64,000 nt of DNA from Vicinamibacterales bacterium (GTDB taxonomy: Bacteria; Acidobacteriota; Vicinamibacteria; Vicinamibacterales; Fen-181): the NCBI GenBank assembly GCA_036504215.1, contig DASXVO010000018.1, positions 1-64,000 of the forward strand. Direction: 5' to 3'. Of this stretch, positions 28,291 to 45,264 are shown piece by piece. Position 1 is the first letter of the stretch; each line of letters opens with the position of its first letter. The notes beneath the pieces are model-generated. The model made no database searches. It saw only the letters and a list, made by a program, of their open reading frames with translations, and was not told the DNA's origin. A program made the position numbers and the translations under genes.

Positions 28291-31230
28291 CTACATGGCT
28301 CGCACGGGACGCGAAGACGCCGCGGCTGCCGCCACGGGGAACGCGAGCGTGAAGCGCGTGCCTTGCCCGACGTCACTGTCGCAGGTAATCGTGCCGTCGT
28401 GCTCGCGCACGATGCCGTAGGTGATGGAGAGGCCGAGGCCAGTCCCCTGTCCGATGGCCTTGGTCGTGAAGAACGGATCGTAGATTCGGGCCAGGTGCTC
28501 GCTCGGTATGCCGGCGCCGGTGTCCGCGACCTCCGCCACGGCTGAACCGTCGGCGATCTTCGTGGAGATCGACAGCCACCCCCCCTTCGGCATCGCGTCG
28601 CGGGCGTTCAGGAACAGGTTCAGGAACACCTGCTGAAGCTTGAACTCGATGCCCATCACGACGGGACCCTGTGTCGCCATCTCGCGGCGCACCTGGATCC
28701 GCGCCACCTTGAACTGGTGCTCCAGCAGCGACAGCACGTCGTTGATGACGACGTTCAGGTCGACCGTCCCCCGCCCCGCGCCGGCGGCCACCGGGCGAGA
28801 CAGGTTCAACAGCCCGTTGACGATCTTCGCCGCGCGGAACGTCTGGCGTTCGATCTTCTCGAGCAGCCGCGTCTTGGGATCCTGAGGATCCGCCCCCTCG
28901 AGCAGCATCTGCGTGAAGCTCGAGATGCCGGTGAGCGGCGTATTGACCTCGTGAGCCACGCCGGCGGCCAGGAGGCCGATGGAGGCCATCTTGTCCGAGA
29001 TCTGCAGCTGTTCTTCCAGTTGGGCGCGGGCCGTGACATCGTCCACGATGATGACCGTCCCGCTGTCCGATCCTGAGCCGGACAGCGACTGCAGCGGCAC
29101 GGTCGTGACGTTCACGAGGAGCCGGTTGTCGTCCGACTGATCGAGCCGCCGTCCGGGCAGCGTGTAGCGATAGAGGCTGCCGCCTTCCGGCGAGCGGGCT
29201 CGCATCGAGCGCACGGCGTCCACGAACGCCGGATCGAAGAGCTCGTCGAGCCGCTGGCCGACGGCCTCGCCGCGCAGCACGCCATACAGTGTTTCGAGCG
29301 CGCGGTTCCAGCGAACGACCCGGTCGTTCACATCGACGACCGCGAGGCCGGCATCGAGCGACTCGAGGACGCTCTCGTTGAACTCGCGCATCCGGCCGAC
29401 TTCCTCGGCCTTGACCTGCAGTTGACGGTACAGCCGCCCGTTTTCGAGCGCCGTCGCCGCCTGCCCCGCAACCACGGCGAGCAGCGCGAAATCCTCGCTG
29501 TTCAGAGGCTCGGCGCGCGGCTTGCGCCCGAGCGCGAGCACCGCAATCGTCGTCTCCTTCGAGACGCAGGGGATGAAATAGTACAGCTCACGTTCACGCC
29601 AGGGCTCGAGTTCGTCCGGCGGGATGCTCCGCGTGGTCGCCGCCTCGTCGAGGCCAACGACCTCTCCCCCCGCCAGCCGCGATCCGAGCGCGGAATCGCG
29701 TGCAATCCGGATCGGCTCGTCGGCGAGCCCCACGGACCGGATCGCCGAGAACTGGGACGACCGTTCCTCGCCGAGCAGGAGCGCCATCCGTTCCACGAGC
29801 AGCGTCTCGGTGACCCGCGCGACGATGCGGTCCCCGAGGCGATAGAGGTCGAGGTCGGAACTGAGGTCGCGCGCAAAGCCCACGAGCGCGCGACGGTAAT
29901 CGTAGCGGTCCCGGTAGAAGGCACGATCGACGGTCGCCTGGATGGCGTTCTTGAGCGGTCGCGCGAGCAGCACCACCACCAGCGTTGCCAGCACCGCGAT
30001 CACCGAGTTGTGCTGGTGCGAGTCCTCCAGGAACATCCACCCGGCCAGACGCAACAGCACGGCGTAAATGGCCGTAATCGCCGACAACGCGGCCGCCCAC
30101 ACCATGGCCCGCTTGATGATCACCTCGACGTCCATCAGCCGGTAGCGGACGATCGCCGAAGCGAACGCGAGCGGGATCAGACTGAGCGGGATGGACGACA
30201 GCTCCATCGGCAGCGACGGGCTGATGCCGAGCGCAAACGGGATCGCGTACCCGAACGCGAACGGCAGGCCGCCGAACACGGTCCCCCACGCAATCCATCT
30301 GAGCTGGCGGCGCGCGGTCAACGAACGGACCTGGCCGAAGGCCTTGCCCACGACCACGAGCCCGCCGATCAGGCACAGCGACAAGTAGAGCGGCTCGTAC
30401 GTCTCCAGGCTCTGCACGACACCGGTGATGTAGAAGCGGGCGTCGCGCGTCGCCCGGGCGATGGCAATGACCCGGGCCGCTCCGAGCATCAACGCGGGGA
30501 GATAGACCAGCGGCCAGAGGCGGCTGCCGAGCGGGGTCTCGACCCAGTTCCGGGGCCGTTCGGGGAAGAACAACGTGAAGTGCAGGAACAGCGGCGGCAG
30601 AAGCAGGACCGACGCCGCATTCACCCAGTAGATGACCCAGTCGAGGTGGTCGAGCCGGCCGCTCGACGACAACGCGGAACAGCCGAAGAACGCGCCGGCC
30701 AGCCAGAGAAAGTGCAGGGTCGCCGGGTTGCCCGGGCGCCGGAGCCTGACCGCCGCGCCGACGAACAACGTGAAGATACCGACCACGGCCAGCGGAAGGT
30801 ACAGGCTTCCCTTCCCGCCGGGCAGCGCGGCGAGCCTGAACTCGAAGGCCTGCTGGCTGCCGAGCCGCAGGATGCGGTAGTTCGCCGACTGGCCGTCCTT
30901 CGCACGGTGCAGCCACTCGGTCACATCCGCCGGACTGTCGACGGCCTGCCCGTCAATCGCGTCCAGCACGTCGCCTGGGCGAATGCCGGCCGCGTAGGCC
31001 GCACTGCCGGGCGCGACTTCCCTGGCCACCAGTCCTTCACTGGCGGCCATCCACAGGACGCCATCGTCCGCCTCGTGCCATTTGGCACGGCTGACGATGT
31101 TGGCAATGCCAAGACCGAGGAGGGCGGCAACGATCCCGAGCGTCAGCAGATTCCGGCTGGTCAGAGCCCAGCCCGGCCAGCGCCAGCCGGCGAAGGGAAC
31201 TGCGGTTGCCGTCTTTCTCTGCTTTCTCAT
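28291..31230 (-). CDS. Multi-domain membrane histidine kinase with PDZ, GAF and PAS domains
   Basis: The 979-residue kinase begins with a membrane helix and a PDZ domain (about 50-135, GSAAYAAGIRPGDVLDAIDG). About eight membrane helices follow (140-460), then GAF (about 480-640) and PAS (about 655-770) domains. The HisKA domain has the phosphoacceptor in GVAHEVNTPLTGI, and the ATPase domain has LNLFLNARDA, DTGAGIP and GTGLGLSITYG. The PDZ domain between two membrane parts is unusual in kinases and could bind a peptide C-terminus outside the cytoplasm. The start is uncertain: ATG 31230 or 31281. It drives the NtrC-type regulator 21 bp downstream. Confidence 0.88.
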   Translation of the reverse strand: MRKQRKTATAVPFAGWRWPGWALTSRNLLTLGIVAALLGLGIANIVSRAKWHEADDGVLWMAASEGLVAREVAPGSAAYAAGIRPGDVLDAIDGQAVDSPADVTEWLHRAKDGQSANYRILRLGSQQAFEFRLAALPGGKGSLYLPLAVVGIFTLFVGAAVRLRRPGNPATLHFLWLAGAFFGCSALSSSGRLDHLDWVIYWVNAASVLLLPPLFLHFTLFFPERPRNWVETPLGSRLWPLVYLPALMLGAARVIAIARATRDARFYITGVVQSLETYEPLYLSLCLIGGLVVVGKAFGQVRSLTARRQLRWIAWGTVFGGLPFAFGYAIPFALGISPSLPMELSSIPLSLIPLAFASAIVRYRLMDVEVIIKRAMVWAAALSAITAIYAVLLRLAGWMFLEDSHQHNSVIAVLATLVVVLLARPLKNAIQATVDRAFYRDRYDYRRALVGFARDLSSDLDLYRLGDRIVARVTETLLVERMALLLGEERSSQFSAIRSVGLADEPIRIARDSALGSRLAGGEVVGLDEAATTRSIPPDELEPWRERELYYFIPCVSKETTIAVLALGRKPRAEPLNSEDFALLAVVAGQAATALENGRLYRQLQVKAEEVGRMREFNESVLESLDAGLAVVDVNDRVVRWNRALETLYGVLRGEAVGQRLDELFDPAFVDAVRSMRARSPEGGSLYRYTLPGRRLDQSDDNRLLVNVTTVPLQSLSGSGSDSGTVIIVDDVTARAQLEEQLQISDKMASIGLLAAGVAHEVNTPLTGISSFTQMLLEGADPQDPKTRLLEKIERQTFRAAKIVNGLLNLSRPVAAGAGRGTVDLNVVINDVLSLLEHQFKVARIQVRREMATQGPVVMGIEFKLQQVFLNLFLNARDAMPKGGWLSISTKIADGSAVAEVADTGAGIPSEHLARIYDPFFTTKAIGQGTGLGLSITYGIVREHDGTITCDSDVGQGTRFTLAFPVAAAAASSRPVRAM

Positions 31231-31323
31231 CGGACGAAGGCCAGACGAAGGGCGATGCCTGGACGAGATAGCAATCGGCATACCACGAACCGGATCGCGC
31301 CGTTCGCCGCTAAGTGTTTCGAT

Positions 31324-31340
31324 TACAGTCATCTACAGTC
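31324..31340 (-). promoter_or_regulatory. Direct repeat upstream of the kinase operon
   Basis: TACAGTC occurs twice with a 10-bp period (31324-31330 and 31334-31340), about one helical turn, 40-60 bp before the possible kinase starts. It could be a regulator site. No matched -35/-10 pair was seen next to it. Confidence 0.25.
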
Positions 31341-31492: not shown

Positions 31493-33388
31493 TCAGAACC
31501 TCACCAGCACGCCGCCGACGATGCGGGTGGGCGGTCGGACCACGAGCAGTTCGTCATAGACGGACCCGTCGCGCGACGGGTCACGGAAGAGGTTCTTGAC
31601 CGCCACCAGCACCTGCCACTGTGCGGAGGTGAAATCGAGGAACGGGAGTCGCTGGGTCACCTGCACGTCGAAGCGGCTGTCCAGGCCTGTCTTGAGTGCG
31701 TCGATGTCGCGGCGAGCGAAGCCCGTGTTGATCCGGCAGGCGATGAACACGCGCGTGGCGGTGAGCGGGATGTCGGTCTCGACTGCTGTCATCAGGTCGT
31801 GGAGCCGCTCATCCTGTCTGGGTTCTTCGCCGAAACCGGGAAGGAACGAGCCGCGCCGGTCGACCGACGCCATTGGCAGCCACCTGGCCGTTGTCATCTG
31901 ATATGCGACAGAGCCACGGAAACGGGACGTGAGCGCGTGCGAGAGCCCGATACTCCAGCCCCGCGCATTCACCTCGCCAGCATTGCCGACCGAGTAGTGC
32001 CGGCCGTCGAACGAACTGGTCAGCCCCACGTCGAACAACGCCAGTTGCTGGTCGGAGGTCTTCTGGTAGAAGCTCCGGAACGCCAGGGTGAGCCCGCGCA
32101 CCAGATCGCTCTCGATCCCGAGCTCGACCTGCCCGGTCCGCTCGGCAACCATCGGCGCGTCACCGACGAACGTGCGGTCGGGCGGAACCCACATGCCGAC
32201 GGTCAACGGCTCGAGGAACTCCTCGGCGCCGGGCGCCAGCATCCGTCGCGAGAGCCCGGCATAGACGCGAACCCGTCTGACGGGAACGACCGTCACGCTG
32301 ACGCTCGGGCTGAGAAGGCCCGCACCCGGGAGGTAGTCGTACCGGGAGTACCTGGCGCCGTAGTCGAGCGCAAGGCGCGGCGAGAACACCCACCGCCCCA
32401 CACCGTAGATGGAGCCTGCGGACCTGCCGAGGGCATCCCGGCCCGAGAGCGGCGACCAGCGCTCGGAGGCCGAGTCGTACCGCTGAGCGCTGTAGGAGAA
32501 CCCGACGTCGTAGACGTGCGGCGACGGGCCGCGGTTGTGGTAAGCGGCCGCGAGGAACCAGGCGCCCAAGTCGGGCTGGGCCATGACCCGAGCCGACCAG
32601 TCACCGTGGTGCCACAGTGGGCCGGCGAACGAGAAGTAGGCCGTGCTCCGAACGATGTTGTCGGCGGTGGTGACCGTGGCGGGAACGCGATCGAATGAGC
32701 CCGACGTCAGCAGATTCACCTGTGCAGTGATCGGCAGGTCCGTCAGGAACCGCGCGGACGAGTCGAGCGCCCTCCCGATCGCGGCTGCGGTGGTCGCGGT
32801 GGTGTCGGGGTCGGAGGCCGCGTCAATCGCCGCCCGCTCCGTCGTTTCCTTGAGGATGCTGCGCTTGAGATGGCGCAGACGCCAAGCCTTCTCGCTGTGG
32901 TCATCGCCAGCCGCGCTGTCCCCGGTCGGGGGTTCGATGGACAGCGGATCGTCGCCGGTGGCCAGGCCGGCGGCAAGCATCTGCGGCGGCGACGTGGCGG
33001 CCTTGATGCGCAGCAGCGTCACCGAGAACCGGGACGGCGCACTCGGACGCACCTCGACAAACTGCCTGCGGGAAGGCGAGAACCCGGTGAGGTGGGCGCG
33101 CACCAGGTACGCTCCGGGCGGAAGCGCCCGGAGCGTGAACGAGCCACGGCGATCGCTGACCGCCACGGCACTGGTCGAACCGAGCGCAGAGATCATCGCT
33201 CCCGCGAGCGGAACCCCGCGCTCGTCCACCACGACCCCTTCGATGTGGCCGGACGCCGCGCGCGCAACGCGCCGCCCGCGGTCGTCCGCACCGGGACGAA
33301 GACCGTCGGACTGCGCGAAGACCAACGGGGTCGCCCCCACCAGCCCCACGACGACCGTCGATCCAACGAGCGTGAAGAGGCGGTTCAT
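31493..33388 (-). CDS. TonB-receptor-like outer-membrane protein with regulatory-like N-domain
   Basis: The 631-residue exported protein has a signal peptide and a carboxypeptidase-regulatory-like domain (about 45-130: GHIEGVVVDERGVPLAGAMI, GSFTLRALPPGAYLVRAHL). A polar linker and a long series of beta-barrel strands follow (about 230-631), ending in VLVRF. Barrel features such as YDVGFSYSAQRYD and IYGVGRWVFSPRLALDYGARY fit SusC/TonB-type receptors. I do not see a clear plug domain or TonB box, and it is shorter than usual receptors. The ATG at 33388 has AAAGG upstream. A strong terminator follows. It may bind a glycan or other large ligand. Confidence 0.75.
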   Translation of the reverse strand: MNRLFTLVGSTVVVGLVGATPLVFAQSDGLRPGADDRGRRVARAASGHIEGVVVDERGVPLAGAMISALGSTSAVAVSDRRGSFTLRALPPGAYLVRAHLTGFSPSRRQFVEVRPSAPSRFSVTLLRIKAATSPPQMLAAGLATGDDPLSIEPPTGDSAAGDDHSEKAWRLRHLKRSILKETTERAAIDAASDPDTTATTAAAIGRALDSSARFLTDLPITAQVNLLTSGSFDRVPATVTTADNIVRSTAYFSFAGPLWHHGDWSARVMAQPDLGAWFLAAAYHNRGPSPHVYDVGFSYSAQRYDSASERWSPLSGRDALGRSAGSIYGVGRWVFSPRLALDYGARYSRYDYLPGAGLLSPSVSVTVVPVRRVRVYAGLSRRMLAPGAEEFLEPLTVGMWVPPDRTFVGDAPMVAERTGQVELGIESDLVRGLTLAFRSFYQKTSDQQLALFDVGLTSSFDGRHYSVGNAGEVNARGWSIGLSHALTSRFRGSVAYQMTTARWLPMASVDRRGSFLPGFGEEPRQDERLHDLMTAVETDIPLTATRVFIACRINTGFARRDIDALKTGLDSRFDVQVTQRLPFLDFTSAQWQVLVAVKNLFRDPSRDGSVYDELLVVRPPTRIVGGVLVRF

Positions 33389-33454
33389 ATACTGGCCTTT
33401 GTGGCTCACGACGTCATTGCCGTCCGGGCAGGCCGCACCGCGGACGGCCCGTCG

Positions 33455-34537
33455 TCAACCTGCAACCACTGTGAACGTCGAGTTCTCGACCTTCGACTTG
33501 CCGGTGACCTTGTCTGTCACCTTGATCTCGAGCCGGTACTCCCCTTCGGGGAAACTCGTGAGCGGCACCGACAGGCCACCGACGAGCTGATGCCCGGCGT
33601 TGACGTCGAACTGCGGCGGCAGCGTCTGCGCGTCGAAGTTCTGCGGATTCGTCTTGTTGAAGAACTTCTCGGCGCCGTCTTTCTTCGTGTAGAAGTTGTA
33701 GTCGACCGTCACGTTCGGCTTGTTCGACGTCTTGTCGATGCCGTTGTTGTAGACGAGGAACAGGATCGAAAGTTCATCCTTCTTCGTGAACTTGTTGTCG
33801 GGCGATGGCGTGAGCCGGGTCAACCCGAACACGTACGGATTGGCGGAGATCTCCGCCTCGGGCAGCGCCGCGGTGAGTTGCTCGGTCTTGCTGGCAATCA
33901 GCACAGAGCTGGTCGCAAGCTCGTCGTTCCAGTAGTTGGGTACGGTGACCGCCTGCTTCGCCACGACGGTGCGCGGCGGCGGCGCCTTCTTGTCCTTGCT
34001 GTTCGCGGACCGCTCACGGACGAGCACCGACACGTCGTACTCGCCTCCGGGCACCGAGAACGCGCGCTGCAACCGATACGGCTGACCGGCTTCCGGAGCC
34101 TTCAGGTCGAGGAATCGAACGTCCTCGAACACGTACTCGACCTTGGCCGGTTCCTTCTTGGCCTTGTCGTCCTTCTTCGCGTCCGCAGCAGCGGGCGCGG
34201 CCGGAGCGGCTGCCGACTTGCTGGTGACGCGGATGTAGTAGATCACCGACGGGGTCGTCAGCTTGTCGATGGCGATCGTGAAGGGCACGAACGTGCGCTG
34301 ATCCCGGGCCTTCAGCGAGTGGTTCTGCCAGGTCAGCGTGAGGTCGTTTGGCGCCGGCTGGCCCGCGGCCACGCCGTCCACGGTCTGGAGGGCGGCAGCG
34401 ATTTCCTGCTGCTGCTGCTTGTCGAACTTCCTGTCATCCTTCTTCTTGTCCTGCGCGAACGATCCGGCAGCGGCCACGAAGAAAAGGGCGGCGATAAGAG
34501 CACTGGCGACGGCCAGCACCCGGGCACGGATATGCAT
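33455..34537 (-). CDS. Exported protein of unknown function
   Basis: The 360-residue product has a signal peptide (ARVLAVASALIAALFFVAAAGSFA). A Lys/Asp/Gln-rich segment and a beta-rich body follow, including a low-complexity Ala/Lys stretch around residue 130-150. The second half (VPNYWNDELATSSVLIASK, through FPEGEYRLEIKVTDKVTGK) recalls acidobacterial secreted proteins, but no enzyme motif is visible. The ATG at 34537 is preferred because it places the hydrophobic core correctly; GGAG is about 13 bp upstream. It is upstream of the TonB-receptor-like gene by 66 bp and probably cotranscribed with it. Confidence 0.65.
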   Translation of the reverse strand: MHIRARVLAVASALIAALFFVAAAGSFAQDKKKDDRKFDKQQQQEIAAALQTVDGVAAGQPAPNDLTLTWQNHSLKARDQRTFVPFTIAIDKLTTPSVIYYIRVTSKSAAAPAAPAAADAKKDDKAKKEPAKVEYVFEDVRFLDLKAPEAGQPYRLQRAFSVPGGEYDVSVLVRERSANSKDKKAPPPRTVVAKQAVTVPNYWNDELATSSVLIASKTEQLTAALPEAEISANPYVFGLTRLTPSPDNKFTKKDELSILFLVYNNGIDKTSNKPNVTVDYNFYTKKDGAEKFFNKTNPQNFDAQTLPPQFDVNAGHQLVGGLSVPLTSFPEGEYRLEIKVTDKVTGKSKVENSTFTVVAG

Positions 34538-34888
34538 GACGACTATACTCCCAGTCTCCGTCGAAATGACGAACATCTGTCGGATCATAGTCGCCTCCAG
34601 ACTGGAAAGTCAAAACCTCCCACCCCATCGGAACCGGGTAGAAGCCGGCGCGTGCTATGATGACGAATTCCCGGGGGAATCCGTGGATTTCGTGGCGATC
34701 TGTCCCGACCGGCCCGATTCCAACCACGGCTGAGCACCTTCTAGCCGTGGACCTCGGCGGAGTGCACCGACGGCTGATCCGGGCGGGTCGCGCCGCGCCG
34801 GGGCCCCCTCGCTGTTTGCCAGAGGCGTCGTCGCGGTGACACGGCGCACCGAGACCCCGCCGGCTGATCCCGGGAGCCGGAGGACGAC
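34538..34888 (+). other. Divergent intergenic region before glgC
   Basis: This 351-bp region separates two divergent genes. It contains the extended -10 listed separately. A CCACGGC/GCCGTGG hairpin lies at 34724-34750. The GC-rich stretch to the glgC ribosome site has no frame that I trust. Confidence 0.4.
34653..34661 (+). promoter_or_regulatory. Extended -10 promoter for glgC
   Basis: TG-C-TATGAT is a good extended -10 element, about 225 bp before glgC. No strong -35 is present, as is usual for extended -10 promoters. It would give a long leader containing a CCACGGC/GCCGTGG hairpin (34724-34750). Confidence 0.35.
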
Positions 34889-38315: not shown

Positions 38316-41111
38316 TCAACCGGAGTGACGGGCGACGTGCCGCGCCCAGAGCGAGACCAGCACCTGTTCCGGCCCCTTGGCCGCGGCATACATCTCGGCA
38401 TACCGGGCGAACTGCGCGGCGTCGATCGAGCCGCCTCCCTGGGCGCCCCGGGCCTGCACCACCAACCGCATCGCCAGGAACAGCGCCTCGTGGTCGCCGC
38501 CGTGTTTCTCAAGATACGACCGCACGCCGGCAAGTGCCTCGGCGTGCTGCCCCGTCATCGACCATGCCGCAATCGACCGCCGCTGAACCGCGGCATCCTC
38601 GGGCCAGTGCCCCGCCGCCTCGCGCGCGATGTCCCGCGCCTGTTCCCAGTCGTTCACCCGAACGAGCGCGTCGAACAGCATGAGGTACGCGAGCGGCAGG
38701 TCGTTCTCTCCCGCGAGCGTCGTTTGCCACGCGCCGATCGCTTCGCGGTCGCGGCGTCCGGCCGCGTAGCACGCCCCAAGGTAGAGGGCTGCGGGAAAGA
38801 AGTCCACCGAGTTCCGCAGCGACGCCCGGAACTCACCCGCCGCCCGCTCGAGGTCGCGCCGCGACAGCAGCGCCAGGCCGCGCAGGAAGGTGACGGCCAG
38901 TTGGTCCTGTCCTGCGGGCAGGCTCTGCAGGACTGCGTCGAACGCACCGCGCCGAGCCTGGTCGATCGCCTCACGAACCCCGGACGGCAGCGACTTCCCG
39001 CCCGATGGCCCGAGGAGGCGGTCGAGGAACGGGGCCAGCACCTCTGGCGCGAGCACCTGCTGGGGCTGGAAGGAACGTGCCGTATCGGAAAACGGGATCG
39101 CGCGCGCGACTTCCGCCCGCGCGGTGCCGAGCTTCGAGGCCGACGCCAACACCTCGAACGGCCGGGACTGCCTGGTCGTCGCCCGATCTCCGGCCGACAC
39201 GATGGCGTGCGCGAAGTACCGGCCGGGCGGAAGCAGATCGATTCGGATGAGTCCGCTCGCCACGCGTCGGCCTTCTCCAGCTTCACACGGCAGTGCCACG
39301 CTGAACACGGCCGGCCCTTGATCCTCCTCGCTCACCTCCATCGTCACCCGCGCTTTGCCGAGCGCCGCACGGTCGGACGAGTAGATCTCGAGGTAGCCGA
39401 TGAACTCCGGCGTCGCGATCCCGCCATCGACATTGGGATTCCACTTGCCAGCCTCGCCGGTTCGCTCGTCGGCGATCAGCAGGTCGCTGACCTCGAGCGG
39501 GCCCACTCTGGCCACCGCGGCGTTGACCGCGTGCTCGACGCTCCCCCGGCGCCCGGTCTTGTCCCGCGCCGCCAGCTTGACCACGTATTCGCCCGGTTCC
39601 ACGTCCACCGCCCCCATGTAGGCGAGCGGCCCCGGAACGTGCCGAGGCGCGATGATGCTCTTCTCCAGGAAGCTGCGGACCACGCGTCCCTTACGATCCA
39701 TCACGGCGACGCCAACCGCAACCGGAGAGCCCTCCGCGCGATCCTTGTCGATGTCCGCGCCGATGATCAGCCGCGGCTTGGACCCCTTCGGGTCGCGTAC
39801 CACGAAGGTGGTGATGCTGACGGGCAAATCGCTTGCCGCGAATGGCGAGCCGAGGGTCCGCGCGATCGCGGCTTCATCGGTCTCGTCCGTCTCCGCGGTG
39901 AACACGAACTGTCGCCTCGCGCGCAGGCTGACATCCTTGCGTCCGAGCTTCACGTCGATTCGGTGCGCCGTGCCGTCGCGGTCGTTGCCCTCGGCCTCGA
40001 AACCGAGCAGGTAGTAACCCGACATCTCGAGCGCGATCCGCGAGTAGATGGTGTCACCCTGTCCGACGACGGTGAAGATGGTGCCTCGGCTCGCGGCGAC
40101 GAGCGTCTCGAAGCCCGCTGAGAGGATCTGCCGATCCGAGTCCGCCGAACCGGGAAACGACGAAGTCAGCGATCGGCTGGCGTCGGAGAGATCCACGCCA
40201 GGATTGTCGACCCGAAGGCCGTAGACGGTGGCGCGCGCGGTCGATGCCTCGGCGGCGACGTCGGTGATCTCGCTCAGCATCTCGCCCCGGTCGTCGAGGG
40301 GAATGGACTCGGAGATCAGCAATACCGTCTTCGGACCGTCGATGCGCCGGAGGCCGCGGAGGATGTCCTTGATCGCAGCCAGCGATCGTCGCGTCCGCTC
40401 CTTGGCCTCCTGGACCATGATCGGCGCGTCGCTCTCGATCATGGTGCGGCAGGCCATCTTCGCGGCCGCGTCGGGCTCGCTCGAGCACTCGCGGGTCACG
40501 ACGCGCTCGAGCACGTCGGATTGGCCGGCCCTGATCTCGAACGCCTCGCCGAGCGCGACGTGCCGCTGCGGACGGTATGGCGTCAACCGGCCGACCATCC
40601 GCGTGAGCGCCTCACGGATTACCGCCCGGTTGGCGGTGACGTCCACGCGGATCCCCATGGGGATGCTGGCAATGGCCACGCGATCGGTTGGCAGCAATTG
40701 GTCGACGAACCGGCTCGCCGCGCGGATGACCGCCTGACCGCTGCCAGACCTGATGTTGCCCTCGTCGACGAGAATCAACACCAGGCGACCTGGCGCCTCG
40801 GTCGTCGTGTTGGAGCTGAACAACGGACGCGCAGGGGGCGCGGCTGCTTCTGCCTGCACGCTCTTGGGCGCCGGACGGGCGTACGACACATAGGTGGCCG
40901 ACACGACCCGCCGCGGCTTGCCGTCCACCATGATGGTGAATTCGCCCACCTGCAGGCCTTCGATGGGATGGCCCCGCCCGTCCACGGCGTTGACGTCGAC
41001 AACCACCAGGTCGACGCCCGCCTTGAAGGTCGCCTGCTGCTGCGCCCCCATCGCACCGCTGCAGACGACCACCATCGATAGCACCACGCCGCACGTGGCC
41101 GTCATGTTCAT
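38316..41111 (-). CDS. Secreted VWFA-related protein with TPR-like tail
   Basis: The 931-residue exported protein starts with a signal peptide. The acidobacterial VWFA-related region (about 30-400) follows: DLVVVDVNAVDGRGHPIEGL, then LVLILVDEGNI. The metal-ion site is degenerate: Asp116 is present but the Ser residues of DxSxS are replaced. Beta-sandwich segments follow (about 420-690), then a helical TPR-like C-terminus (about 700-931). A role in surface or periplasmic assembly is possible, but the function is unknown. Its ATG overlaps the TGA of the upstream VWA gene (ATGA, 41108-41111), so translation is coupled. It is the last gene of a three-gene operon. Confidence 0.85.
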   Translation of the reverse strand: MNMTATCGVVLSMVVVCSGAMGAQQQATFKAGVDLVVVDVNAVDGRGHPIEGLQVGEFTIMVDGKPRRVVSATYVSYARPAPKSVQAEAAAPPARPLFSSNTTTEAPGRLVLILVDEGNIRSGSGQAVIRAASRFVDQLLPTDRVAIASIPMGIRVDVTANRAVIREALTRMVGRLTPYRPQRHVALGEAFEIRAGQSDVLERVVTRECSSEPDAAAKMACRTMIESDAPIMVQEAKERTRRSLAAIKDILRGLRRIDGPKTVLLISESIPLDDRGEMLSEITDVAAEASTARATVYGLRVDNPGVDLSDASRSLTSSFPGSADSDRQILSAGFETLVAASRGTIFTVVGQGDTIYSRIALEMSGYYLLGFEAEGNDRDGTAHRIDVKLGRKDVSLRARRQFVFTAETDETDEAAIARTLGSPFAASDLPVSITTFVVRDPKGSKPRLIIGADIDKDRAEGSPVAVGVAVMDRKGRVVRSFLEKSIIAPRHVPGPLAYMGAVDVEPGEYVVKLAARDKTGRRGSVEHAVNAAVARVGPLEVSDLLIADERTGEAGKWNPNVDGGIATPEFIGYLEIYSSDRAALGKARVTMEVSEEDQGPAVFSVALPCEAGEGRRVASGLIRIDLLPPGRYFAHAIVSAGDRATTRQSRPFEVLASASKLGTARAEVARAIPFSDTARSFQPQQVLAPEVLAPFLDRLLGPSGGKSLPSGVREAIDQARRGAFDAVLQSLPAGQDQLAVTFLRGLALLSRRDLERAAGEFRASLRNSVDFFPAALYLGACYAAGRRDREAIGAWQTTLAGENDLPLAYLMLFDALVRVNDWEQARDIAREAAGHWPEDAAVQRRSIAAWSMTGQHAEALAGVRSYLEKHGGDHEALFLAMRLVVQARGAQGGGSIDAAQFARYAEMYAAAKGPEQVLVSLWARHVARHSG

Positions 41112-42367
41112 CGGGTGCTCCCCGAAGCCGCTCGATACCCCTCGCGCGCCCGCACCGTGTAGCTCTTGTCGGTCACCTGCACCTTGATGCGGCGCCAGAC
41201 CCCGTCGTGTCTGGTGGACGGCGGCGTATAGCTGAGCAGGTACTGGTGCGCGAGTTCGTCGAGGATGCTGTTGAACGCATCGCTCAAGCGGTCGATGTCT
41301 TCTGTGAAGAACGCCCGGCCGCCGCTCTTTCGCGCCAGGCGCTCGAGAATCTCCCGCAGCGCCAGGTCCCTCGTCCCACGGCCCTGGCCTATCGTGAACA
41401 GCACGGCGTCACTGCGCTCCAGGCGCCGCTCGACGAATGGCAGCGTCGTCCTGCTGGCCGTGTCCTCGCCGTCGGTGAAGATGACGAGTGCGCGGCGACC
41501 GCGCTGGCGGCCGAGCATGTCCACCGCCTTCACCGTGACGTCGTAGAGCGCGGTGCCGCCCCACGCCGCGAGGCGATCCACCGCCTTCTGGCGCACCGTC
41601 GGGTCGGTCGAGGCGCGTGTCAGCGCGAAGATGTTGTCGTTGAACGCCAGCAGCGTCACCTTGTCCTCGGGACGCAGCGCGCCGAGGAACGCCGTCACTG
41701 ATCGCTTCAGCTGCAACATGGACGGTGTCATGCTGCCGCTCACGTCGAGCGCCGCCGCAACTTCGAGCGCGGCGTTGCCCGCCGCGAAGTACTCGATCTT
41801 CTGCGGCACGTCGTCTTCGTAGATGCGGAACTGGTTCTGGTGCAAGCCGGACACGCTCGCACCGCTTTCGTCGGTCACGCTCACGGTCACCTGCACCGCG
41901 TCGACATCGGTGCGCTCGGTGTACCCGGCGTCAGTCGTGCGGATCGTGGCCACCAGACGCTGGCCGCCCGCCACCGTCGCCACCGCGCGAATCTGGTGTT
42001 CGGACACGGCGTCACCCGCATCCCACGCGCACTCCCACGGCGGTCGGTCGAGCGAGCAGATCAGCTTGCCGTCGGCGTAGATCGCCACGCGCACGGGTCC
42101 CGCGGGCGGGTTCCTCACTTCCACGCGCACGGTGAGAATGCCGCTCACGTAACTTCCCGCCGGCGGGTAGACGATCTTGACGGAGGGTTCACCCGACTGC
42201 GCCACGACCAACGCGGTCAGCGCCAGCACCGCAAGCGCCGCGCCCCGCAGATGCAGCCGCCAACCGAGCGGCCGACGGCCTGCCGCCGCACGGCGGCACA
42301 CGGACCTCGCCGCCAGCGGATTCGGCGCAGAACGGCGGGCGGCGGAACGAAGACCCTCGTTGTTCAT
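41108..42367 (-). CDS. Secreted VWFA-related protein with intact MIDAS
   Basis: The 419-residue protein has a basic N-terminus and a membrane or signal segment (about 42-56). An Ig-like domain spans about 60-150 (IVYPPAGSYVSGILTVRVEV). The VWA domain has an intact metal-ion site: Asp208-Ser210-Ser212 in ALDVSGSM and IFTDGED. The C-terminal YLLSYTPPS and GVWRRIKVQV segments are typical of acidobacterial VWFA-related proteins. It starts at the ATG at 42367, which overlaps the upstream TGA (ATGA). The adjacent paralogue downstream has a degenerate site, suggesting division of roles. Confidence 0.87.
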   Translation of the reverse strand: MNNEGLRSAARRSAPNPLAARSVCRRAAAGRRPLGWRLHLRGAALAVLALTALVVAQSGEPSVKIVYPPAGSYVSGILTVRVEVRNPPAGPVRVAIYADGKLICSLDRPPWECAWDAGDAVSEHQIRAVATVAGGQRLVATIRTTDAGYTERTDVDAVQVTVSVTDESGASVSGLHQNQFRIYEDDVPQKIEYFAAGNAALEVAAALDVSGSMTPSMLQLKRSVTAFLGALRPEDKVTLLAFNDNIFALTRASTDPTVRQKAVDRLAAWGGTALYDVTVKAVDMLGRQRGRRALVIFTDGEDTASRTTLPFVERRLERSDAVLFTIGQGRGTRDLALREILERLARKSGGRAFFTEDIDRLSDAFNSILDELAHQYLLSYTPPSTRHDGVWRRIKVQVTDKSYTVRAREGYRAASGSTR

Positions 42368-44982
42368 TGGCGCGTGTCCGGGACCAGCGGGCCCCCGGTG
42401 GCCGTCAGCGCCGCCACCTGGTCGATGTATCGCTCGTAGGCAAGCATCCGTGCGGCGTGCGGGAAGGCCAGCCAGTCGTCCGGGTACGCCGGCCGCGCCA
42501 ATTCCACCAGGTCCTGGGTCGCCGCCGGCAACAGCAGCGCGACAACCGACGCTGGGACACGAAGCTGCGCGGTCAGTTCCGCGAGACGCAGGGTGAGGTC
42601 CGGCAGGGCGGCCGGCAGTGTTGGCGCGGCAGACAGGCGGCCGTAGCCATCGGCGGGCGGGTCCAACGGAAAGCGGACGGCCAACGAACCGTCCAGACCG
42701 TGTCTGCACACGCCCCACGCATCTGGAACGAGGTCGCCCGCGTCGAGGCCGACCCACAACAACTCGGTCAGAGTCAGCCGGTCCGTCAGGCCGTCTCGTT
42801 GACGGCCGGCCAGCCACGCGAGCGCGTTCTGCCTCCGGGGATCGAGACGCGCCGTTTCAGCCAGCGCCAGCCAGTGCGATGGACCGGTGAGCGCGCGGAT
42901 GCGCTGCCGGCCGCGCTCGATGTAGCCGATGACGCGGTCTCGATCCACGTCGAGGTGGGCGGCCGGACGGACATTTACCGCCGTGAGGGCGAATGCCTGC
43001 TCGTCGCGTCGGATCACCTGCCGCGCGCTGAGCGGCTGCTCGGTCGACAGCCGCTTGAGCGAGAACCTGGCGAGCGCGACGTCGAGACACAAGAGCGATC
43101 CCTCGAGATGCCACGGCGCGCCGCCGCCGACGCGCTCGGCCGGAAGGGTCCAGGCGGGAGCCTGCGGACCGACGGCCAGGCCCTGCAGGCGAAAGTCGTG
43201 ATCATCGGCGGGGTTCGGCCCGAGGAGGGTATTGTTCTCCGGGTCGCCGATGTGCGCGGCATAGGCCAGCGAGCGAAGGGCGCCGGCCAGCAGCCCGTCG
43301 TCGGGCGCTTTTGCCCGGAGTCCGAGGCCGTCGTCCAGCCGCGGCCCCGTGAGCTTCTCGCGAACCTTCAGCAACCGAGACAACTCGGCACTCGCTGGAT
43401 CGATTCGGTAGGTCTGGTCCTCCCACCGCACGATTGTCATCGCCCGCGCGTCGGCTGAACGTGCGCCGGCAAGCGCGTGGAGCACGACGTCCTCGGCCGA
43501 TTCCGGCGCGCCGATGCCGACGGTCTCCCGGAGCGGCGGCAGCAGGCGCGTGACGATCCAGTCGGCGACGCTCGGGCCGAATCCCTTGCCGGGTTCGAAG
43601 GGCAGTCCGATCAGCGACTCGACGAGGCTCACAGCATCCGCGTGATCGAGCACTCCATGGAACGAGCACCGATCGATGACCGCCAGTGCCCCCTGGAACT
43701 GCGACAGCGCAACGACCAGCCGCTTGTCGTCGCCGATCGCCGACATGGCCTCGGCCCTTCGGGCGGCCGCCACGTAAGTCCCGGCCCGAACGACGCCGAT
43801 GCGCTCGAGCGTCAGGTGCAGCGCTTCGAAACGGGCGTAGCTGCGGACGGCTCGGAGGACCGACGATCCGTCCGACGCCGCGTTGCCGAAGAGGCGCTGC
43901 GCGAAGCAGACGGCATGGGACCGCAGCCGACGCACCCGCGGTTCGTGAGCGAGGACGACGCGTGCCAGCGTCGCGGCATCGACAACCGCGTCGTCGCCGG
44001 CGCCGGCGTCTGTCGACAGGTTCTCGCCGAACACGTCCTCCCAGAACCGCCTGGCCGAAGGCGGAGACAGCCGTCCCTGCGGCGTCACCTCCACGAGTGA
44101 CAGCAGCAGCCGCAGGTCGCCCGAGCGGCGCGAGAAGGGGCCGATTTCGAGCGACCACGCGGGGTCGACCGTCGTCGCGGTATTGTAGAGCTCTCGCAGG
44201 TGCTTGATCCCGCTTTTCGAGTCGGAATTCGGAAGACCGAGCGCGAACTGGAGGCGCGGGCCGTTCAGTTGCGCAATCGTCGTGTAGAAGGCCGCCAGCC
44301 GGCCGGCGTCGCGCGTGAGGAGGTGGCGGATGAACGACGCTGGGTCGTCCGGTTTCGCCCCCACCAGCGCCGCCCACCACGGCTCGGCGATCTGGCCGCC
44401 CGGCACCAGCACGCGGCCCGCCGAAACGCGGAGGCCCGGTGCGGTGGCTGCGAAGGCACCGGGCGTGACACGGTCGACCAACAGGAGAAGATCGCGGCTG
44501 CGGCCGATGAACTGCAATGTGTCCGCGTCGAGCGCCGCAAGGCCGTAGTAGACGAGGCTGGCTGCCCGATCGAGGAGAACCACCGACAGCAGGTGCTCTT
44601 CGCTGACCTGTTCTTGCAGGATGATGTCCCGCCAGATCGCGGGAGTGAGCGGAAGCGGCAAGTCGTCCGCGATATCGGTCGACGCCTGTGCGCGAGCGGT
44701 CGCACCAAGGTAGGCGAGCAGCCCGTCCCGACGCGAGATCGAGGGAGCGTCCTGAGGCAACTCGCCGTGGAGCACTCGGACCAGTTCGAGCGGCACCCGA
44801 GCCGGCTCGACGTGCGCGTCGAATCCGGCCAGGCGTGCCAGCGCTTCGACCGAGCCGGCGAACCGCACGGTGGCCCACTCGGGTACACGCCGGTCTGTCG
44901 TCGCCGCGTCCGCAGGCGAGCCGCCCGACCAGACGACCGGCAGCATGAGGATCGTGCAACAGACCGCGCGGGCCACGAGCAT
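42364..44982 (-). CDS. Large exported protein of unknown function, first gene of the VWA operon
   Basis: The 872-residue product has a signal peptide (VARAVCCTILMLPVVWSGG). A long helical body without low complexity, further membrane helices or recognised motifs follows. Leu, Ala and Arg are frequent. Segments such as LPLTPAIWRDIILQEQV and GDLRLLLSLVEVTPQGRLS suggest a globular alpha-rich domain. I do not recognise the family. It is the promoter-proximal gene; both downstream VWA genes overlap by 4 bp (ATGA), so the three products are likely made in fixed ratio and work together. The 282 bp upstream (44983-45264) shows no feature that I trust. Confidence 0.75.
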   Translation of the reverse strand: MLVARAVCCTILMLPVVWSGGSPADAATTDRRVPEWATVRFAGSVEALARLAGFDAHVEPARVPLELVRVLHGELPQDAPSISRRDGLLAYLGATARAQASTDIADDLPLPLTPAIWRDIILQEQVSEEHLLSVVLLDRAASLVYYGLAALDADTLQFIGRSRDLLLLVDRVTPGAFAATAPGLRVSAGRVLVPGGQIAEPWWAALVGAKPDDPASFIRHLLTRDAGRLAAFYTTIAQLNGPRLQFALGLPNSDSKSGIKHLRELYNTATTVDPAWSLEIGPFSRRSGDLRLLLSLVEVTPQGRLSPPSARRFWEDVFGENLSTDAGAGDDAVVDAATLARVVLAHEPRVRRLRSHAVCFAQRLFGNAASDGSSVLRAVRSYARFEALHLTLERIGVVRAGTYVAAARRAEAMSAIGDDKRLVVALSQFQGALAVIDRCSFHGVLDHADAVSLVESLIGLPFEPGKGFGPSVADWIVTRLLPPLRETVGIGAPESAEDVVLHALAGARSADARAMTIVRWEDQTYRIDPASAELSRLLKVREKLTGPRLDDGLGLRAKAPDDGLLAGALRSLAYAAHIGDPENNTLLGPNPADDHDFRLQGLAVGPQAPAWTLPAERVGGGAPWHLEGSLLCLDVALARFSLKRLSTEQPLSARQVIRRDEQAFALTAVNVRPAAHLDVDRDRVIGYIERGRQRIRALTGPSHWLALAETARLDPRRQNALAWLAGRQRDGLTDRLTLTELLWVGLDAGDLVPDAWGVCRHGLDGSLAVRFPLDPPADGYGRLSAAPTLPAALPDLTLRLAELTAQLRVPASVVALLLPAATQDLVELARPAYPDDWLAFPHAARMLAYERYIDQVAALTATGGPLVPDTRQ

Positions 44983-45264
44983 GATGAGGACCGGGGACCT
45001 TACAGGCCGGATGTAGCCGCATGCTATGTGGGGATCGGCGGAGTGTCAAGGTGGCTGGCTCGCTTCTCGAGGGGATTTGGTCTTCGATCTTTCCTTCATC
45101 TTCCCTTGATGTGGGACGTGTGACTCTGCCCGACGCCGCCGGCGGCAGCCAGGCGCAACCCGGAGACCTCCCTCTCCGTGCTCGTGGAACAGCTCTGTCG
45201 GGAGAGATCGGGCGCCTGACGAGGGGCGCCAACGACCTTGTCGCGAGTTGCTGCAGGCGGCTCC

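Follow-up and report, generated by a model that had tools for sequence, protein, structure and literature searches.

A predicted exported protein family paired with VWA proteins across Acidobacteriota and extended to a gene triplet in Vicinamibacteria

The described systems that come closest to the locus studied here are the Bat proteins, the domain family TIGR03436 and VWA domains of the integrin I type. The Bat proteins include VWA and TPR proteins as well as the exported BatD, and have been proposed to form a single complex, the function of which is unclear (PMC3557215). TIGR03436 is defined solely as a domain. In the open-access literature on this VWA family in Acidobacteria we found neither a functional description nor a constant pairing of a core protein with a TIGR03436 lineage. 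Here we analyse a triplet of genes, P0001, P0002 and P0003, in a window of 64,000 nucleotides from a Vicinamibacterales bacterium (contig DASXVO010000018.1). As in the Bat system, VWA proteins, TPRs and a large, probably exported protein are encoded together, but the large protein P0001 is unrelated to the large Bat protein. P0002 and P0003 are members of TIGR03436, whereas P0001, which we call the core, lies outside this family. P0002 resembles integrin I domains and other MIDAS-type VWA domains in that it keeps the five metal-site residues and, in profile searches, matches integrin I domains weakly. It differs from them in being bacterial, in having its VWA domain joined to a Big_7 Ig-like domain and in the decay of the site in its Terriglobia counterparts. 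The first-pass annotation of this DNA knew of no described system with such a composition, and our open-access literature search likewise found no description of the module.

The features of the locus are collected in Table 1; all three reading frames are open and judged to be real. The three genes had been reported to overlap by 4 bp at both junctions, which is correct, and both overlaps read ATGA. The overlap between P0001 and P0002 is also found in the loci L035, L038, L040 and L049, and the one between P0002 and P0003 in L048 and L049. Since the gene order recurs in most of the related loci and the overlaps recur at the same junctions, the arrangement of the triplet is more than chance. 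When P0002 is read from the ATGA start, an unusual arginine-rich lead of about 36 residues precedes its hydrophobic segment. A GTG start 22 codons downstream gives the protein an ordinary signal peptide and removes the first overlap, so that coupling at this junction is possible but not proven. Consensus matching detected two promoter-like sites around the triplet where 0.3 were expected, and the site just past P0003 suggests that the transcription unit ends there.

Table 1. Features of the triplet and its surroundings, in window positions
Feature	Position	Strand	Remark
P0001, 872 aa: predicted exported, mostly helical core	42364..44982	(-)	open ORF
P0002, 419 aa counted from the ATGA start: predicted exported Big_7 (Ig-like) and VWA protein, TIGR03436	41108..42367	(-)	
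P0003, 931 aa: predicted exported VWA protein (TIGR03436) with middle region and C-terminal TPRs	38316..41111	(-)	
ATGA overlap, P0001 stop and possible P0002 start	42364..42367	(-)	
ATGA overlap, P0002 stop and P0003 start	41108..41111	(-)	GGGGAG just before
Alternative GTG start of P0002, GAGG upstream	42299..42301	(-)	in frame
Sigma-70-like promoter, TTGACA-17-TAGCAT, about 38 bp upstream of the P0001 ATG	45021..45049	(-)	consensus match only
Second promoter-like site, directly past P0003	38243..38271	(-)	consensus match only
Codons 208-212 of P0002, D-V-S-G-S of the metal site	41732..41746	(-)	
Codon 116 of P0003 (Asp116), metal-site remnant	40764..40766	(-)	
Codon 595 of P0001 (His595)	43198..43200	(-)	near-invariant across the phylum

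Each of the three proteins has one hydrophobic stretch at its N-terminus and none elsewhere, in agreement with the signal peptides or membrane segments noted before. Export was judged by hydropathy, without a signal-peptide predictor, and on this basis P0001, P0002 and P0003 are probably exported and otherwise soluble. Elsewhere on the minus strand of the window we observed a histidine kinase of 1013 aa with an unusual build of PDZ, 7TM region, GAF, PAS and kinase domains (28291-31332), a 638-aa protein composed of CarboxypepD_reg and a TonB-receptor-like barrel (31493-33409) and, adjoining the gene of the latter, a 377-aa protein without family match (33455-34588).

Both VWA proteins exceed the curated TIGR03436 cut-off of 81.25 bits, P0002 with 179.9 and P0003 with 119.5. 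The intact MIDAS proposed for P0002 (Asp208-Ser210-Ser212) was confirmed, and Thr272 and Asp299 are present too. In P0003, as had been described, Asp116 is kept and the serines are gone, and the serines of DxSxS are also absent across its orthologues. The tail of P0003, previously called TPR-like, is indeed made of TPRs according to Pfam TPR matches and TPR structures. The source genome contains 27 matches to TIGR03436, of which 21 lie over the cut-off. More than half of the copies that we examined in this genome lack DxSxS; those nearer to P0002 mostly keep the motif, and those nearer to P0003 are without it. Judged by its motif, a degenerate metal site is ordinary within TIGR03436.

The first-pass annotation recognised no family for the 872-residue P0001, and neither profile nor structure-based searches gave one. 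Pfam, NCBIfam, PHROGs and PADLOC contain no match to it, phmmer and profile searches of the PDB sequences gave none either, and the plasmid search was without a match as well. Matches to Rho-GDI at an E-value of 0.8 were rejected as chance. The AlphaFold model of P0001, built with 20 relatives in the alignment, is confident and mostly helical (pLDDT 86.8, pTM 0.89). We additionally folded the N-terminal part of L042, a longer relative of P0001 of which the N-terminal half is the phylum-conserved one, using 35 sequences that span the phylum (pLDDT 93.1, pTM 0.91). Foldseek searches of the PDB with the whole P0001 model and with this N-terminal part gave no match at E <= 0.001. The best VIA-align Z-scores in the searches with the whole P0001 and the L042 part were 5.9, to a designed helical repeat, and 2.9; a Z of 5.9 is background for helical proteins. 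Matches to importin-like, influenza nucleoprotein-like and designed helical folds, with E > 0.4 or Z < 6, were put down to chance. It is possible that the modelled core, as covered by these searches of the whole P0001 and the N-terminal part of L042, represents a new fold. Given a confident model without a fold match, and a family without a match in the libraries searched, an experimental structure of the core would probably be informative.

The part of L042 that was folded includes a small alpha/beta part without counterpart in P0001. This extra part of about 90 residues precedes a 'VPLPL' motif (A1 columns 240-360) in the longer cores, namely L041, L042, L043, L045, L048, L050 and relatives in the phylum, and is absent in the compact P0001. 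A PDB search with the model that includes it gave no match.

The core positions conserved across the phylum are W117, P194-G195-G196, W203, G227, W314, G506, Y574, H595, W611, G628, W837 and a few leucines and alanines, while Q430 and D152 are less strictly conserved. Besides Tyr574, His595 is the sole ionisable side chain that is near-invariant across the phylum. In the alignment, this pattern resembles a structural framework, in which one or two residues at the most, His595 above all, arouse suspicion.

Relatives of P0001 are found in 27 of 60 related genomes. The order P0001-P0002-P0003 recurs in most of the related loci and is also found in another order of Vicinamibacteria (L083), so the conservation of the triplet across this class, on which the original proposal depended, holds. 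Clustering of the neighbouring ORFs of 21 loci gave no further conserved gene, the other shared families occurring in at most 5 of the 21. The third gene is the variable one: it is missing in L041 and L044, and lies on the opposite strand in L038 and L132. The source genome itself has a second module, L045 (G000:C21:189000-207000), in which P0002 comes first, followed by a P0003 without VWA domain and then by P0001; the same rearranged order, with a P0003 that likewise lacks the VWA domain, is found in a congener (L135). The core of L045 is longer than P0001, with an extra domain, is about 35% identical to it and is closer to the congener copy. There are also P0003-like genes without a core (L123-L128 and L133). 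Both these genes and the absence, in some modules, of the third gene or of the VWA domain it encodes count against reading the three proteins as one assembly, and together they mark the pair of P0001 and P0002 as the invariant part. Tandem duplicates of the P0003-like gene were seen at L046:10929-15883 and L124:8376-13192. The distance matrices of P0001, P0002 and P0003 correlate with r of 0.83-0.85, a correlation which is partly shared ancestry, and copies in one genome mostly retain matched relatives across the three proteins.

The genomes sampled for core relatives belong to Acidobacteriota only. A profile of P0001 found relatives, many of them distant, in 39 of 297 genomes of the phylum, and the core family has more than a hundred members. 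A contig scan with the single protein found nothing, which probably reflects a diversity of the family too great for exact peptide patterns. A scan with a Terriglobia alignment gave 94 matches, and 80 loci could be retrieved from named genomes. A VWA gene is the next gene downstream of the core in 75 of them and the other five end before that point, which makes the pairing 75 out of 75 where there is room. The commonest other flanking family occurs in only 12 of the 80 loci, which argues against generic synteny as the reason for the pairing. In the other classes a TIGR03436-type VWA gene adjoins the core wherever the contig continues. If a module is defined as a core with a TIGR03436-type VWA that is adjacent, one gene away (as in L045 and L135) or fused, there is no exception among the loci with room on the contig, and the source triplet is one such module. 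The neighbourhoods indicate that the conserved unit is the core with one VWA protein, and that the second arm of VWA and TPRs comes on top of it in Vicinamibacteria.

The metal site of the partner VWA has a different history from the pairing. All five residues of P0002 (D208, S210, S212, T272 and D299) are invariant in 17 of 17 Vicinamibacteria sequences. They are kept in most of the other groups sampled, two of which have a threonine in place of the first serine. In Terriglobia the partner VWA reads D-S-Y-A-N in 58 of 75 loci, and most of the remaining ones have lost the threonine and the second aspartate as well. The predicted loss of the MIDAS is fixed across the whole class. We also observed that the VWA proteins downstream of the Terriglobia cores (L143-L222) have an altered but conserved motif, FDTSNYMY, with the threonine and the second aspartate replaced.

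In several genomes the parts are joined in single proteins. The core and a VWA with degenerate site share one ORF in three genomes of one family (L090, which is truncated, L091 and L101), each time preceded by a separate gene for a VWA with intact site. TPRs, core and VWA are combined in a single ORF of 1281 aa in L095. In L088, L093, L094 and L097 TPRs stand ahead of the core in one ORF, and in L093 the ORF that follows has two VWA domains, one intact and one degenerate. By eye the N-termini of these four proteins appear VWA-like. Profiles did not confirm this and support the TPR part alone, and the idea that the long N-terminal extensions of L088, L093 and L097 carry a degenerate VWA as in P0003 was dropped. 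A putative fusion of P0001 and P0002 in L142 was left out, as its VWA coding sequence runs across two frames, the assembly being fragmented. That the same three types of part are joined in different ways argues strongly, if indirectly, that P0001, P0002 and P0003 would meet as separate proteins. The fusions and the constant pairing support one physical assembly, as far as sequence can indicate this.

The first-pass annotation proposed an envelope complex of three proteins with one metal-dependent and one metal-independent VWA arm. The first half of this proposal stands: the conserved gene set, the constant VWA partner and the fused core, VWA and TPR parts make it very probable that the three proteins act together in the envelope. 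The second half fails as a rule, because the site is lost in Terriglobia, the third protein of L045 and L135 has no VWA domain and L041 and L044 have no third gene. The contrast between an intact site, found in P0002 only, and a degenerate one is real in the source triplet but does not define the system. The explanation that we consider probable is one exported assembly in which the core is scaffold or receptor and the VWA protein a docking arm, with the VWA/TPR arm added in Vicinamibacteria. P0001, large and helical, would be the scaffold or receptor. P0002 may dock through its VWA domain on P0001, or on a ligand that P0001 presents, in this organism by a metal-bridged contact. P0003 might bring in further partners through its TPR arm and through a second VWA-like surface free of metal. 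The three proteins would touch each other, with the VWA face as the likely contact, and the assembly would be situated in the periplasm or on the cell surface.

The role of the core is where other readings differ. It could be an exported enzyme of new fold, for which the VWA and TPR proteins hold the substrate or regulate activity. His595 and Tyr574 are near-invariant across the phylum, Gln430 is nearly so in two of three groups, and PDB fold searches without a match leave room for a novel active site. We nevertheless regard an enzyme as unlikely and prefer a scaffold, because Trp, Gly, Pro, Leu and Ala, residues of a structural kind, make up almost all of the phylum-conserved positions, and no catalytic-looking set of acidic residues, Ser, Cys or Lys is conserved; a match to an enzyme family is lacking too. 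If the core were instead displayed outside the cell, the set might be a surface device for adhesion or capture, in which the VWA with the metal site binds an external ligand as integrin I domains do. The export-type N-termini, the intact MIDAS in all Vicinamibacteria examined and the fact that the solved structures closest to the P0002 VWA include integrin I domains would fit such a device. It is improbable in view of the Terriglobia, which keep the pairing despite the loss of the metal site; no surface anchor was seen, and the similarity to integrins is that of the shared VWA domain only.

An acidobacterial Bat (aerotolerance) complex acting on stressed envelope proteins would be built from the same types of part: a pair of VWA proteins, one of them with TPRs, and a large exported third protein. 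We think this very improbable, and as a claim of homology it already fails. The BatD domain (PF13584) was not found in the source genome, while two control genomes were positive, and P0001 has no Pfam match at all. Bat proteins have several trans-membrane anchors, whereas P0002 and P0003 have no hydrophobic stretch beyond the N-terminus. Furthermore, no MoxR AAA+ ATPase is conserved beside the set among the neighbours of the 21 loci.

The phylum-wide pairing of a previously undescribed, predicted exported family with one lineage of VWA proteins, which Vicinamibacteria extend to a triplet, is real and has more support than the first-pass annotation could have known. One lineage of TIGR03436 thereby gains a constant partner, defined parts, natural fusions and cultured hosts, the latter being Edaphobacter modestus DSM 18101, Silvibacterium bohemicum, Edaphobacter lichenicola and Occallatibacter savannae. 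More tentatively, and with some doubt on our side, the module might be a new phylum-specific envelope machine, in which an exported scaffold or enzyme of unseen fold is operated by a dedicated VWA arm. Some classes would have retained the metal switch of this arm, and Terriglobia would have given it up. That the metal site has decayed in a single class which still keeps the pairing amounts to a natural experiment on the role of the MIDAS.
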